Notes under the pieces: generated by a model
The model's input: only the letters and a program-made list of their open reading frames with translations
What the model was told of the DNA's origin: nothing
The model's database searches: none
Assembly (NCBI RefSeq): GCF_009695655.1
Contig: NZ_VUNM01000019.1
Coordinates: 1 to 48,039, forward strand
DNA: 48,039 nt
Reading direction: 5' to 3'
Origin: Sharpea porci
GTDB taxonomy: Bacteria > Bacillota_I > Bacilli_A > Erysipelotrichales > Coprobacillaceae
Shown here: one piece after another, positions 1-39,119 of the stretch
Layout of the letters: each line of letters opens with the position of its first letter
Position numbering within the stretch: the stretch's first letter is position 1
Program-made: the position numbers and the translations under genes

Positions 1-274
1 TATATGATGTCTGCTTCATTGGTTCTAGAAGCTTTGACTGCGATAGGGAGATAAGGACAATGTCCTTATCTCTTTTTTCTTCCTCCGTCATCTTCTTGGC
101 AATCTTTTTTCCCCAGGCTATGACTTCATCCTCACTGTTATTATGTTGAGGAAGGAGTTCTTCCATAGTTCCGAGTTTCCTTACTATCTTTGAAGTTGAT
201 TTGCCGTTCTTTCTAAATGATTTCTGGATGTAAAGTGATGTAGAGTTCTTAGATTTTGAAAAGGTCAGTTTCAT
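1..274 (-). CDS. Transposase, N-terminal part (runs off window)
   Basis: Reads leftward from an ATG at 274, preceded by an AGGAGG site with 8-base spacing; the ATG six bases upstream is too close to that site. About 91 residues are visible. The start, with LYIQKSFRKNGKSTSKIVRK followed by a short LGTMEEL segment, is typical of IS1634-type (IS4 superfamily) DDE transposases, whose N-terminus reads through a small basic domain before the catalytic core. The catalytic residues lie outside the window. The protein is nearly identical to the partial one at the other end, with a few substitutions such as SEDEV versus SEEEV, so the copies have begun to diverge. Confidence 0.75.
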   Translation of the reverse strand, partial: MKLTFSKSKNSTSLYIQKSFRKNGKSTSKIVRKLGTMEELLPQHNNSEDEVIAWGKKIAKKMTEEEKRDKDIVLISLSQSKLLEPMKQTSY

Positions 275-430
275 AGGCATCACCTCCTACAACTATTATA
301 TCATATATTCCTGCGTATTACTACATATAATTTCGCAAATTTGACAATAAAAAAACTCAAAAGCATTGATATAATCAACGTTTTGAGCGATTTGGTTAGT
401 GAAAAAATAGAGACAACTGTCAAACTCCCG
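1..430 (-). mobile_element. Partial insertion sequence, left copy (IS1634/IS4-like)
   Basis: Bases 53-430 are the reverse complement of bases 47662-48039, aligned without gaps and with only scattered mismatches. The shared outer end reads CGGGAGTTTGACAGTTGTCT, which probably marks the IS terminus at about 430. Inside it lie a promoter-like stretch, a strong ribosome site and the transposase N-terminus. The element continues beyond the window, so its other end and any target duplication cannot be seen. The family name is inferred from the transposase N-terminus. Confidence 0.8.
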
Positions 431-1711: not shown

Positions 1712-1745
1712 AAACGAAAAGATCCCCTGCGGATCTTTTTCGTTT
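1712..1745 (+). terminator. Rho-independent terminator of the ABC ATPase gene
   Basis: A long stem pairs AAACGAAAAGATCC with GGATCTTTTTCGTTT around a short loop, 43 bases after the stop codon. The 3' arm is T-rich. Confidence 0.85.
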
Positions 1746-1851
1746 ACAACAAAACAAAGTATTAAAGACAAAATACATTGCTTTCTATTTGCGTAAACGA
1801 GGAAAAAACGATTCAACAATGTATCAAAAAAGAACAGCTTGCACTGTTCTT

Positions 1852-2172
1852 CTATTCATGCCATTCAGTTTCGCCTGCAAACCGCCATTTTGCTTCTTCA
1901 GGTACCTCGAATGGAAGTCTTCCAGTCCTATCAATGTAGTCCTTCTCCTCCTGTGAGATAAGGCGACCGGCAGTCAATCCATCTTCTTCGAACTCTAGAA
2001 GACATCCTCCTCTTGCGCCTATAATTACCTCAAGATTTATGTAATCCACGTAGGCATTCAGAACTTCCTCAGCTTTCTCATCACTGATAGCATCTCGTTC
2101 TTCGTCACTGAGACCTTCGTACCATTCGATGATTTCTAGCGATCTGATGATATTAGATAATGGGTTCTTCAT
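1852..2172 (-). CDS. Small acidic protein of unknown function
   Basis: A 106-residue, strongly acidic protein (many Glu/Asp) with no signal peptide or membrane segment. I do not recognise the family. The N-terminal ~50 residues look helical, with a segment EWYEGLSDEERDAISDEKA, and the C-terminus is rich in Trp and Glu. A clear AAGGAG site precedes the ATG at 2172. Its promoter is module P1 (2196-2228), one of four matched modules here, so it is probably co-regulated with the 75-residue gene upstream. Its position next to an IS and a possible transposase relic suggests an accessory origin. Coding is supported by the ribosome site and promoter, not by recognised homology. Confidence 0.65.
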   Translation of the reverse strand: MKNPLSNIIRSLEIIEWYEGLSDEERDAISDEKAEEVLNAYVDYINLEVIIGARGGCLLEFEEDGLTAGRLISQEEKDYIDRTGRLPFEVPEEAKWRFAGETEWHE

Positions 2173-2195
2173 ACATCCTTCTCCTTTTCATTTTC

Positions 2196-2228
2196 ATTAT
2201 CATTCTTGTTTTTATACTGAGGAACCGT
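2196..2228 (-). promoter_or_regulatory. Promoter module P1 (ACGGTTCC type)
   Basis: On the minus strand, TGACGGTTCCTCA is followed by exactly 17 bases after TTCCTC and then a GATAAT -10 (2196-2201). It lies upstream of the 106-residue gene. The -35 region shares ACGGTTCC with three further modules. Confidence 0.55.
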
Positions 2229-2332
2229 CAGGTCCTCATTTTGTCTTGTAGCATTAGATTAACTCATTCATTGTTTTGATCGCTTTTTATAGAGTGAAGT
2301 AATAGATGAGAATTAAAAGGTCTTTCATTCCA

Positions 2333-2560
2333 CTAGCATATGTTTGGCGTATCGCTATCTTGTTCTTGATGACGTTCCATATCCTCAATCATTCTTACCA
2401 ACATATGATTATCTGTATCAATAAGTCCGATATGCTCGTTGAGAATATGTTGTAGTTCAGGGCTTATACCTGATCTTTTAAGAAGTCTCATATTAGCTAA
2501 AACTCCTTCAAGATCTTGGTAAACGATCTTAATGCGTCTGATGATTTCCTTTTCTTCCAT
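2333..2560 (-). CDS. Small helical protein of unknown function
   Basis: A 75-residue protein starting MEEKEIIRRIKIVYQDLEGV. The ATG at 2560 is chosen because AAGAGGAAA lies 8 bases upstream; the open frame continues further 5' without such a site and would run back through the promoter. Heptad-like hydrophobic spacing through EGVLANMRLLKRSG and HMLVRMIEDMERHQE suggests a helical, perhaps dimeric, protein. There is no recognised domain. Promoter module P2 lies about 65 bases upstream. It is probably part of the same accessory unit as the 106-residue gene. Confidence 0.6.
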   Translation of the reverse strand: MEEKEIIRRIKIVYQDLEGVLANMRLLKRSGISPELQHILNEHIGLIDTDNHMLVRMIEDMERHQEQDSDTPNIC

Positions 2561-2623
2561 GATAATTTTTCCTCTTTTCTTAGTTTTTATTAAGCAAGGA
2601 TGCATACCTATGCTTATATCCAT

Positions 2624-2656
2624 AGTATAAATTAGGGGGCAAAACGCCGGAACCGT
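2624..2656 (-). promoter_or_regulatory. Promoter module P2 (ACGGTTCC type)
   Basis: The minus strand carries GCTTCTCACGGTTCCGG, then 17 bases after TTCCGG, then a TATACT -10 (2624-2629). It serves the 75-residue gene starting at 2560. The 17-base block GCTTCTCACGGTTCCGG is identical in module P4. Confidence 0.6.
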
Positions 2657-2744
2657 GAGAAGCACGTTTTCGTGAGACCGTATTTTTAATAAGAAATAAT
2701 AAATGAGCTAAGGTCAAATATTGAATGTATGAATATTTTTATAT

Positions 2745-2780
2745 TCAATTGGTGAATTCAAACAAACAGCTGCTTATCAT
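2745..2780 (-). CDS. Possible 11-residue peptide gene
   Basis: The frame MISSCLFEFTN has a very strong ribosome site (AGGAGGAG, 6 bases before the ATG at 2780) and sits directly downstream of promoter module P3. It could be a real micropeptide, a leader peptide, or the truncated remains of a longer gene that once matched the neighbouring genes. Apart from its position, nothing in the peptide itself supports a function. Confidence 0.3.
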   Translation of the reverse strand: MISSCLFEFTN

Positions 2781-2811
2781 GCCTTACTCCTCCTATCAAT
2801 ATGCAGATATC

Positions 2812-2844
2812 ATTTTATATTATGTCCAAATATTGAGGAACCGT
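2812..2844 (-). promoter_or_regulatory. Promoter module P3 (ACGGTTCC type)
   Basis: The minus strand carries TGACGGTTCCTCA, a 17-base spacer after TTCCTC, then TAAAAT (2812-2817). The 13-base -35 block is identical to P1. A strong ribosome site and an 11-codon frame follow. Confidence 0.5.
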
Positions 2845-2907
2845 CACAGCCTCGTTTTGCTTTGGCACACTATTAGCCTGGTAAAAATAAGTCCTCACCA
2901 CTCCTCT

Positions 2908-2940
2908 AGTATATACGGCAGTTTTGAACACCGGAACCGT
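2908..2940 (-). promoter_or_regulatory. Promoter module P4 (ACGGTTCC type)
   Basis: The minus strand carries GCTTCTCACGGTTCCGG, a 17-base spacer after TTCCGG, then TATACT (2908-2913). It is nearly a duplicate of P2. Only a weak GTG-initiated frame of 29 codons lies between it and P3, so no gene is called. Confidence 0.55.
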
Positions 2941-3005
2941 GAGAAGCTGTGTTTGTTTTTACTTTCAGAAATATGTTATTTACTATCTCTTGTCTTATAA
3001 AAAAA

Positions 3006-3036
3006 GTTCGTAGAATATTCATCTACGAACTATTTT
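3006..3036 (+). terminator. Perfect stem-loop, terminator-like in both directions
   Basis: GTTCGTAGA (3006-3014) pairs perfectly with TCTACGAAC (3022-3030) around a 7-base loop. It is flanked by A-runs on the left and TATTTTT on the right, so it could stop transcription on either strand. It separates the small-gene array from the region to its right. Confidence 0.55.
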
Positions 3037-3039
3037 TCT

Positions 3040-3178
3040 TCAGATAGTTATTGTTACAGTCAATTGCAATTTCGTACTTTTTGTTGAATAATAGCCAAGA
3101 GCAGGAACTTGTTCATTAAGTGAATGCCTTCTTGAAACATACGTGCTCTTATTTCCAATATATAGAAACTTTAAAAAA
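3040..3178 (-). pseudogene. Possible transposase C-terminal remnant
   Basis: A minus-strand frame ending at TGA 3040-3042 reads STYVSRRHSLNEQVPALGYY, continuing to ...TVTITI. The pattern H-S-L-N-x-x-x-P-x-x-x-Y resembles the end of rve-type integrase cores (IS3/IS481-like). There is no start codon, ribosome site or upstream domain; the frame fades into the malQ terminator. Read as a relic, not a functional gene. The homology is pattern-based only. Confidence 0.25.
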
Positions 3179-38018: not shown

Positions 38019-39119
38019 TTATTCAAATGAGATATCAATATCGTCTTCAGTCATCGTTTCATCTTCAGCTTCAGGGTCAACACTAAAGTCAGCAACCATA
38101 GGAGCTACTAAAGCGATAAAGAGTGCACCTACAAGCATACCTACTAAGTAAGCCCAGCCATTACCAATTGTAATAAAGCCATAAATACCACCAACTGGAG
38201 GGATTGAAGCTTTAGCACCAAGTAAGCATGTTACTGCAGCACCAAGTGCACCACCAATCATATTTACAGGAACAAGACGAGAAGCTTTGACTAATGTGAA
38301 TGGGATAGCACCTTCAGTAATACCAACAAATCCCATTACCCAGTTACCTTTACCAGCATCCTTGAATGATTCTGAATAACGTGAGCTTCTAATAACTGTT
38401 GAAATAGCATAAGCTAATGGTGGAATACAAATTGCACAGTTGATATAAACATTTGGTTGATAGATCTTTTCAGTTAATAAAACGTTACCTGCCATCCAAG
38501 CTGCTTTATTGATAGGACCACCCATATCAGAAGCAATCATAGCACCTAACACAATAGCTAAGACAAGCTGGTTCGTTCCAGACTTACTCATTGTACGAAT
38601 CCAAGAAATTAATGCAGTATTAAGCATTGATAATGGTGTATTAAGAATAACCCCCATTACTAATGCAATAACAATAGTAGCAAAGAATGGTAAAATAACT
38701 AATGGCATCATTGATTTAAATGAATCAGGTAAATTAAAGTGCTTTTTGCACCATCTTACTGTATAACCAGCTAAGAAACCGGCAATAACAGCTCCCAAGA
38801 AACCTTCCTGATAATTAGAAGCAATAGCACCACCAATTAAACCAGCACCAATTGCAGGCTTTTCAGCAATTGAATACGCAATGAATCCAGCTAATACTGT
38901 ATTAACTAAGCCAATACCTGTCCAACCAACTTGTTGAATCTGATATAATACATGGTAAAATCCTGTAGACTTAGCATATGGATCTAAGCTTGATACACCA
39001 GTACATAAAGCAATAATTAATGGAATAGCAACAACTAAAGAAGCACCAATAATAAGTGGTAACATGTAGCCAATACCTGTCATCAAATGACCTTTGGCTT
39101 CACTAAAAAACTTTTTCAT
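38019..39119 (-). CDS. PTS system fructose-family EIIC component
   Basis: A 366-residue, multi-helix membrane transporter subunit of the fructose/mannitol-type PTS (KGHLMTGIGYMLPLIIGASL, IASDMGGPINKAAWMAG, GITEGAIPFTLV). EIIC carries the sugar through the membrane while EIIB phosphorylates it. The C-terminal ~20 residues form an unusual, very acidic tail. It has its own ribosome site and is separated from EIIB by 101 bases holding a hairpin. Together with EIIB and EIIA it forms a complete, unfused transporter. Confidence 0.93.
   Translation of the reverse strand: MKKFFSEAKGHLMTGIGYMLPLIIGASLVVAIPLIIALCTGVSSLDPYAKSTGFYHVLYQIQQVGWTGIGLVNTVLAGFIAYSIAEKPAIGAGLIGGAIASNYQEGFLGAVIAGFLAGYTVRWCKKHFNLPDSFKSMMPLVILPFFATIVIALVMGVILNTPLSMLNTALISWIRTMSKSGTNQLVLAIVLGAMIASDMGGPINKAAWMAGNVLLTEKIYQPNVYINCAICIPPLAYAISTVIRSSRYSESFKDAGKGNWVMGFVGITEGAIPFTLVKASRLVPVNMIGGALGAAVTCLLGAKASIPPVGGIYGFITIGNGWAYLVGMLVGALFIALVAPMVADFSVDPEAEDETMTEDDIDISFE

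Follow-up and report, generated by a model that had tools for sequence, protein, structure and literature searches.

A candidate genus-restricted promoter family, with a putative activator site in the -35 position, common to two accessory islands of Sharpea porci

Four sites on the minus strand of Sharpea porci DNA, designated P1 to P4, combine a conserved block in the -35 position with a -10-like box and raise the question of which factor, if any, reads them as promoters. We addressed this question by computational analysis of the window (the whole stretch of 48,039 nucleotides), of the rest of the genome (G000), and of other genomes and viral contigs.

The octamer ACGGTTCC occurs four times in the window, always on the minus strand (positions 2228, 2656, 2844, and 2940; Table 1), against 0.18 expected copies, and none of 100 shuffles reached four. 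The octamer and the -10 box are separated by 19 nucleotides, or 17 counted from TTCCNN taken as the -35 hexamer, exactly so in all four sites, and each -10 hexamer matches TATAAT at five of six positions. Any other offset gave a far poorer -10 match, and 20,000 random placements within the same DNA yielded none equally good. The sites alternate between two subtypes, P1 and P3 being 80% identical over 35 nucleotides and P2 and P4 95% identical over 21 nucleotides. A sequence-only reading of this locus had reported the four copies as the only ones in the window, the exact spacer, and the alternating subtypes, all of which were reproduced. Its proposal that a two-promoter unit had been duplicated was too strong: a repeat search among the four sites found no duplicated DNA between them. 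The P4-P3 and P3-P2 intervals (96 and 188 bp, respectively) are close to one and two of the 95-bp units described below.

Table 1. Features of the four sites and of the surrounding island (window positions)
Feature	Position	Strand	Context or basis
Accessory island, ~1.4 kb, from the malQ terminator to the terminator before the msmX-type ABC gene	1740..3173	.	Comparison with sibling G001
Terminator-like hairpin AGAACAGTGC/AAGCTGTTCT plus T run, directly 3' of P0001	1825..1850	-	Read from sequence
P0001 gene, 106-aa acidic protein behind P1	1852..2172	-	Ribosome site AAAAGGAGAAGG
P1 -10 box GATAAT	2196..2201	-	
P1 conserved block ACGGTTCC in -35 position	2221..2228	-	CCTGACGGTTCCTCA
P0002 gene, 75-aa helical-hairpin protein behind P2	2333..2560	-	Structure model
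P2 -10 box TATACT	2624..2629	-	
P2 conserved block ACGGTTCC	2649..2656	-	CTTCTCACGGTTCCGG
11-codon frame MISSCLFEFTN behind P3	2745..2780	-	Strong ribosome site GATAGGAGGAG
P3 -10 box TAAAAT	2812..2817	-	
P3 conserved block ACGGTTCC	2837..2844	-	TGTGACGGTTCCTCA
P4 -10 box TATACT	2908..2913	-	
P4 conserved block ACGGTTCC	2933..2940	-	CTTCTCACGGTTCCGG, as at P2
Bidirectional terminator-like hairpin between P4 and malQ	3005..3031	.	

The four sites are flanked by malQ and by an msmX-type ABC ATPase gene, each with its own terminator. In the one sibling genome compared (G001), the same neighbors enclose ~375 bp of unrelated intergenic DNA, and we therefore consider the intervening stretch of the window to be an accessory island. 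The claim that each site leads into a small frame held for P1 and P2, the only sites followed by credible small genes. A short leader separates P1 from P0001, which has a good ribosome site; the sibling has, on contig C9, a stretch resembling the terminator-like hairpin of this gene. The predicted structure of the P0002 product, a hairpin of two helices, is of good confidence (mean pLDDT, 87.8). P3 is followed only by the 11-codon frame, which may encode a leader peptide or be what is left of a gene, and no obvious gene lies between P4 and P3. Protein family searches gave no match above the cut-off for P0001 or P0002. Homologs of P0001 were found in neither order genomes, phages, nor plasmids, and those of P0002 were not convincing in viral contigs, phages, or plasmids. 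BLAST searches of the island against phages, plasmids, and order genomes returned only short, low-complexity, or chance matches, and an Rfam scan of the window returned no family. Residues 2 to 35 of P0001 match the end of a Petralouisia muris protein at 59% (L129:5001-5096; WYEGLSDEE motif); that protein is otherwise different, the two having a short N-terminal module in common, and no ACGGTTCC lies near its gene. On the minus strand of window positions 1 to 290, a truncated frame at the contig end resembles the start of a transposase, with no Pfam match at 0.001.

The sequence-only reading had proposed a genome-wide search for its motif. Genome-wide, ACGGTTCC occurs nine times, and none of the five copies beyond the window has a -10 box at the required spacing. 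Allowing two mismatches revealed a second place, on contig C8 (G000:C8:38709-38743; ATGGTTCCTCA...TATAAT), with a counterpart in the sibling (G001:C5:75693-75725); further matches with one mismatch, on C12 of G000 and on C26 and C43 of G001, fall in apparent coding stretches and were taken as chance. The shorter block CTTCTCACGGTT, at the same 21-nucleotide distance from TATAAT or TATGAT, is found twice in G001 and seven times in G000, mostly in a 95-bp tandem array on C8 whose near-identical copies amount to one or two observations that are independent. The pattern TSAYGGTT-N21-TAWNMT gave 12 matches in G000, ten of them within the two islands, versus 1 in the reversed control; other members of the family had no such excess of matches concentrated at a single locus. 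The motif is wider than the octamer first described, its invariant part being CTTCTCACGGTT or TSAYGGTT and not ACGGTTCC.

Two further analyses bear on the strength of this motif. A weight matrix trained on seven sites, P1 to P4 among them, scored these four at 40 to 43 and the next site of the window at 3.5; the C8 and C5 copies, which were outside the training set, scored 40.9 to 44.7. Among six distinct site types, -10 identity amounted to 31 of 36 positions at one offset, and none of 20,000 random sets exceeded 25. At the sequence level, a two-block motif with a fixed spacing over unrelated spacers and confined to two accessory islands is a promoter signature. Some of its copies sit directly upstream of genes with ribosome sites.

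The motif appears to be restricted to the genus. A stricter pattern matched in 3 of 395 class genomes, seven times in G000 and once in each of two others, the single matches probably being due to chance. In an order-wide scan of 316 genomes with the ACGGTTCC form, matches outside the genus were at the control level, and scans of viral contigs gave about 100 chance matches per 14-base pattern and no array. Thus, no convincing copies were found elsewhere in about 395 class genomes, 316 order genomes, and the viral contigs. One viral contig (L223:8200-8500) carries 18 copies of ACGGTTCC at 12-bp spacing, a tandem repeat unrelated to the promoters described here.

A second locus of the same architecture lies on C8. 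Neither a purely local duplicated pair nor a small-gene array beside insertion sequence debris as the full account, as first described, was supported. On the minus strand of C8, the promoter array is followed by a ClpP-like gene (PF00574), a VirD4/TraG coupling protein gene, and type I restriction-modification genes. The array lies downstream of the 38709-38743 site and consists of 95-bp tandem repeats (92% matches; L378:5121-5548) spaced by 93 to 96 bp, each unit holding CTTCTCACGGTTAAGC...TATGAT at the 21-nucleotide distance, i.e., the promoter-like CTTCTCACGGTT motif. An Rfam scan of the array returned no family. The window island is absent from the sibling; the motif of the second locus is present there on C5, with one 95-bp unit instead of the six of G000. 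The last promoter unit of the sibling lies ~60 bp upstream of the ATG of an intact ClpP-like gene, which in G000 is interrupted by an IS200/IS605-like insertion comprising TnpA (PF01797) and a downstream TnpB-like frame (L378:2664-4497). No close relative of the element ClpP was found outside the genus among 311 genomes. The C8 coupling protein has relatives in the CD1115 family of Gram-positive conjugative plasmids. We saw neither a relaxase nor any other transfer gene adjoining the VirD4 gene. In the sibling, the VirD4 gene is a 93-aa piece directly followed by a PDC-S50 candidate defense gene with a Schlafen AlbA_2 domain (L014:3446-4885). The longer VirD4 gene and type I restriction system of G000 versus the VirD4 piece and PDC-S50/AlbA_2 gene of G001 represent an exchange of cargo at one site.

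Tandem direct repeats in accessory DNA could also be binding or recombination sites of the iteron, transfer origin, or cassette-like type, the -10 match being a by-product. Both islands are accessory, and the 93- to 96-bp spacing on C8 and the intervals between P4, P3, and P2 would suit such sites. This explanation is nonetheless improbable: the distance to the -10 box is constant although the sequence in between is unrelated, several sites are closely followed by a ribosome site and a gene, inverted repeats flanking the block do not for the most part exceed chance, and no recombinase adjoins the sites. We give hardly any credence to a conserved coding fragment (e.g., LLTVPxF peptides), with the -10 box merely representing in-frame codons. 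A single open frame, lacking a start codon, can be drawn from P4 through P3 with both motifs in codon phase, but the frame is broken by the 95-bp units, the P1 and P2 frames differ, most readings contain stops, and no protein match was found.

We compared the sites with known promoter classes. Sigma-70 promoters have a TTGACA-like hexamer 16 to 18 nucleotides before the -10 box. At spacers of 15 to 19 nucleotides, no site has more than three of the six TTGACA positions, and the reading as ordinary sigma-70 promoters with their own -35 was rejected; none has a TGn extended -10 either. ECF sigma factors recognize a GGAAC -35 together with a conserved -10 of the CGTC/CGT type; P1 to P4 carry GGAACC on the opposite strand with no conserved -10 partner, and an ECF regulon was rejected. 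In LytTR direct-repeat promoters, a second 9-bp half-site is located about 21 bp away. Although ACGGTTAAG, found in the C8 array, is similar to the half-site of AgrA (ACAGTTAAG), the sites have no clear second half-site (at best 3 to 6 of 9 positions identical at 18 to 24 bp on either side), and this class was also rejected. The sites do resemble class II activator promoters, such as those of the PhoB type, in that a conserved site replaces the -35 at a fixed spacing from an ordinary -10; they differ in that the block is single and asymmetric, neither a direct nor an inverted repeat.

The claim of an invariant, nonstandard -35 read by a dedicated factor thus stands in part: the exact spacing, the lack of a TTGACA-like -35, and a second locus heading an operon agree with it, but the invariant part is not the octamer. 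That factor could be a dedicated sigma factor belonging to a mobile element and reading ACGGTT as its -35, as the invariant block lies at a fixed 21 nucleotides from the -10 and no sigma-70 -35 is present. We consider this unlikely: the -10 boxes are of the ordinary TATAAT type, which a divergent sigma factor would not need, no sigma factor gene was recognized in the islands, and the ECF-like GGAAC of the opposite strand lacks its partner. Such canonical -10 boxes favor an activator over an alternative sigma factor, as far as promoter sequences allow.

On balance, P1 to P4 probably belong to a genus-restricted promoter family common to two accessory islands, in which the site of a dedicated activator would replace the -35 element. 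The conserved block (consensus CTTCTCACGGTT, extended in the window to ACGGTTCC) would take the place of the normal -35, spanning roughly -45 to -32, and always lies 21 nucleotides before a standard -10 box. The site type is found at just one other place in the genome, before a phage defense and conjugation cluster, which suggests that one regulator may control both islands. This regulator, for which no gene was recognized in either island, would bind the CTTCTCACGGTT block and would most likely be an activator contacting RNA polymerase with the primary sigma factor. An activator is likelier than a repressor because the promoter lacks a -35, and the primary sigma factor is likelier than a special one because the -10 is ordinary. 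The small accessory genes of the two islands would then be switched on together, and both islands would derive from, or be controlled by, the same conjugative-type element. On the other side, neither P3 nor P4 leads into a credible protein gene, and much the same footprint would be expected if a repressor overlapped the promoter or if the block had a structural role in DNA binding.

The nearest described arrangement appears to be the establishment regulon of p576 (EGeRS2 and Regp576; pLS20 family, clade II), and the mode of action may be alike. In p576, a short conserved element bordering the -35 precedes each of several small, varied operons; the promoters are strong and of the sigma-A type, with dual TTATCCC motifs (the dual heptamer TTATCCCnnTTATCCC, abutting the -35 on its upstream side), and one of them drives a ribbon-helix-helix repressor gene; the regulon is carried by a conjugative element, and its genes act against host defense (PMC8708921). 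By analogy, the block could be a repressor operator and the sites establishment-type promoters of a conjugative element, off in resident cells and briefly on after transfer. The similar layout on accessory DNA, with the conserved sequence touching the -35, and the conjugation-related VirD4-type gene of the second island fit this proposal. However, the block is of another sequence and lies within the -35 rather than upstream of it, the -35 is poor, and the aligned sites show CTTCTCACGGTT only, with no dual TTATCCC-type repeat. The window island yielded no repressor gene, P0001 and P0002 (no family match; helical hairpin for the latter) do not provide a ribbon-helix-helix protein, and no transfer genes were seen adjoining the VirD4 gene. 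The sites are on chromosomal islands, and the window genes have no ArdC-type homology and no homologs of known function. Repression of this kind is rather unlikely, and for all their resemblance to Gram-positive establishment regulons (p576 and pLS20), the sites show none of the sequence features that define those regulons.

Frpo/ssi single-strand promoters of leading regions are likewise repeated before small genes on conjugative DNA, a stable hairpin presenting the -35 and -10 in its stem (PMC11541004). Stems of differing sequence around the block at our sites were suggestive by eye, but a single-stranded DNA or RNA hairpin was rejected (P values of 0.01 to 0.41, above 0.1 for five of seven sites). 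Most sites thus lack a significant enclosing hairpin, and they also differ by a far shorter conserved sequence and the lack of a TTGACA -35.

If the promoter family is real, the motif offers a handle for finding the regulon from sequence alone, connects two orphan small proteins with an operon for defense and conjugation, and points to a dedicated regulator; the 95-bp array would exemplify a natural change in promoter copy number before a restriction system. A more specific proposal, which we advance tentatively and hold to be rather doubtful, is that of a cross-island regulon in this Bacillota genus, with one CTTCTCACGGTT regulator jointly controlling the ClpP-like/coupling protein defense operon and the tiny-gene array, whose genes may act in defense or counter-defense, and with promoter copy number tuned by 95-bp tandem duplication.

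As a separate observation, an AbiEii toxin gene (PF08843) with an upstream AbiEi-like frame is located near the C8 island (L378:8767-9971), with a RelB-family antitoxin gene at L411:497-784.
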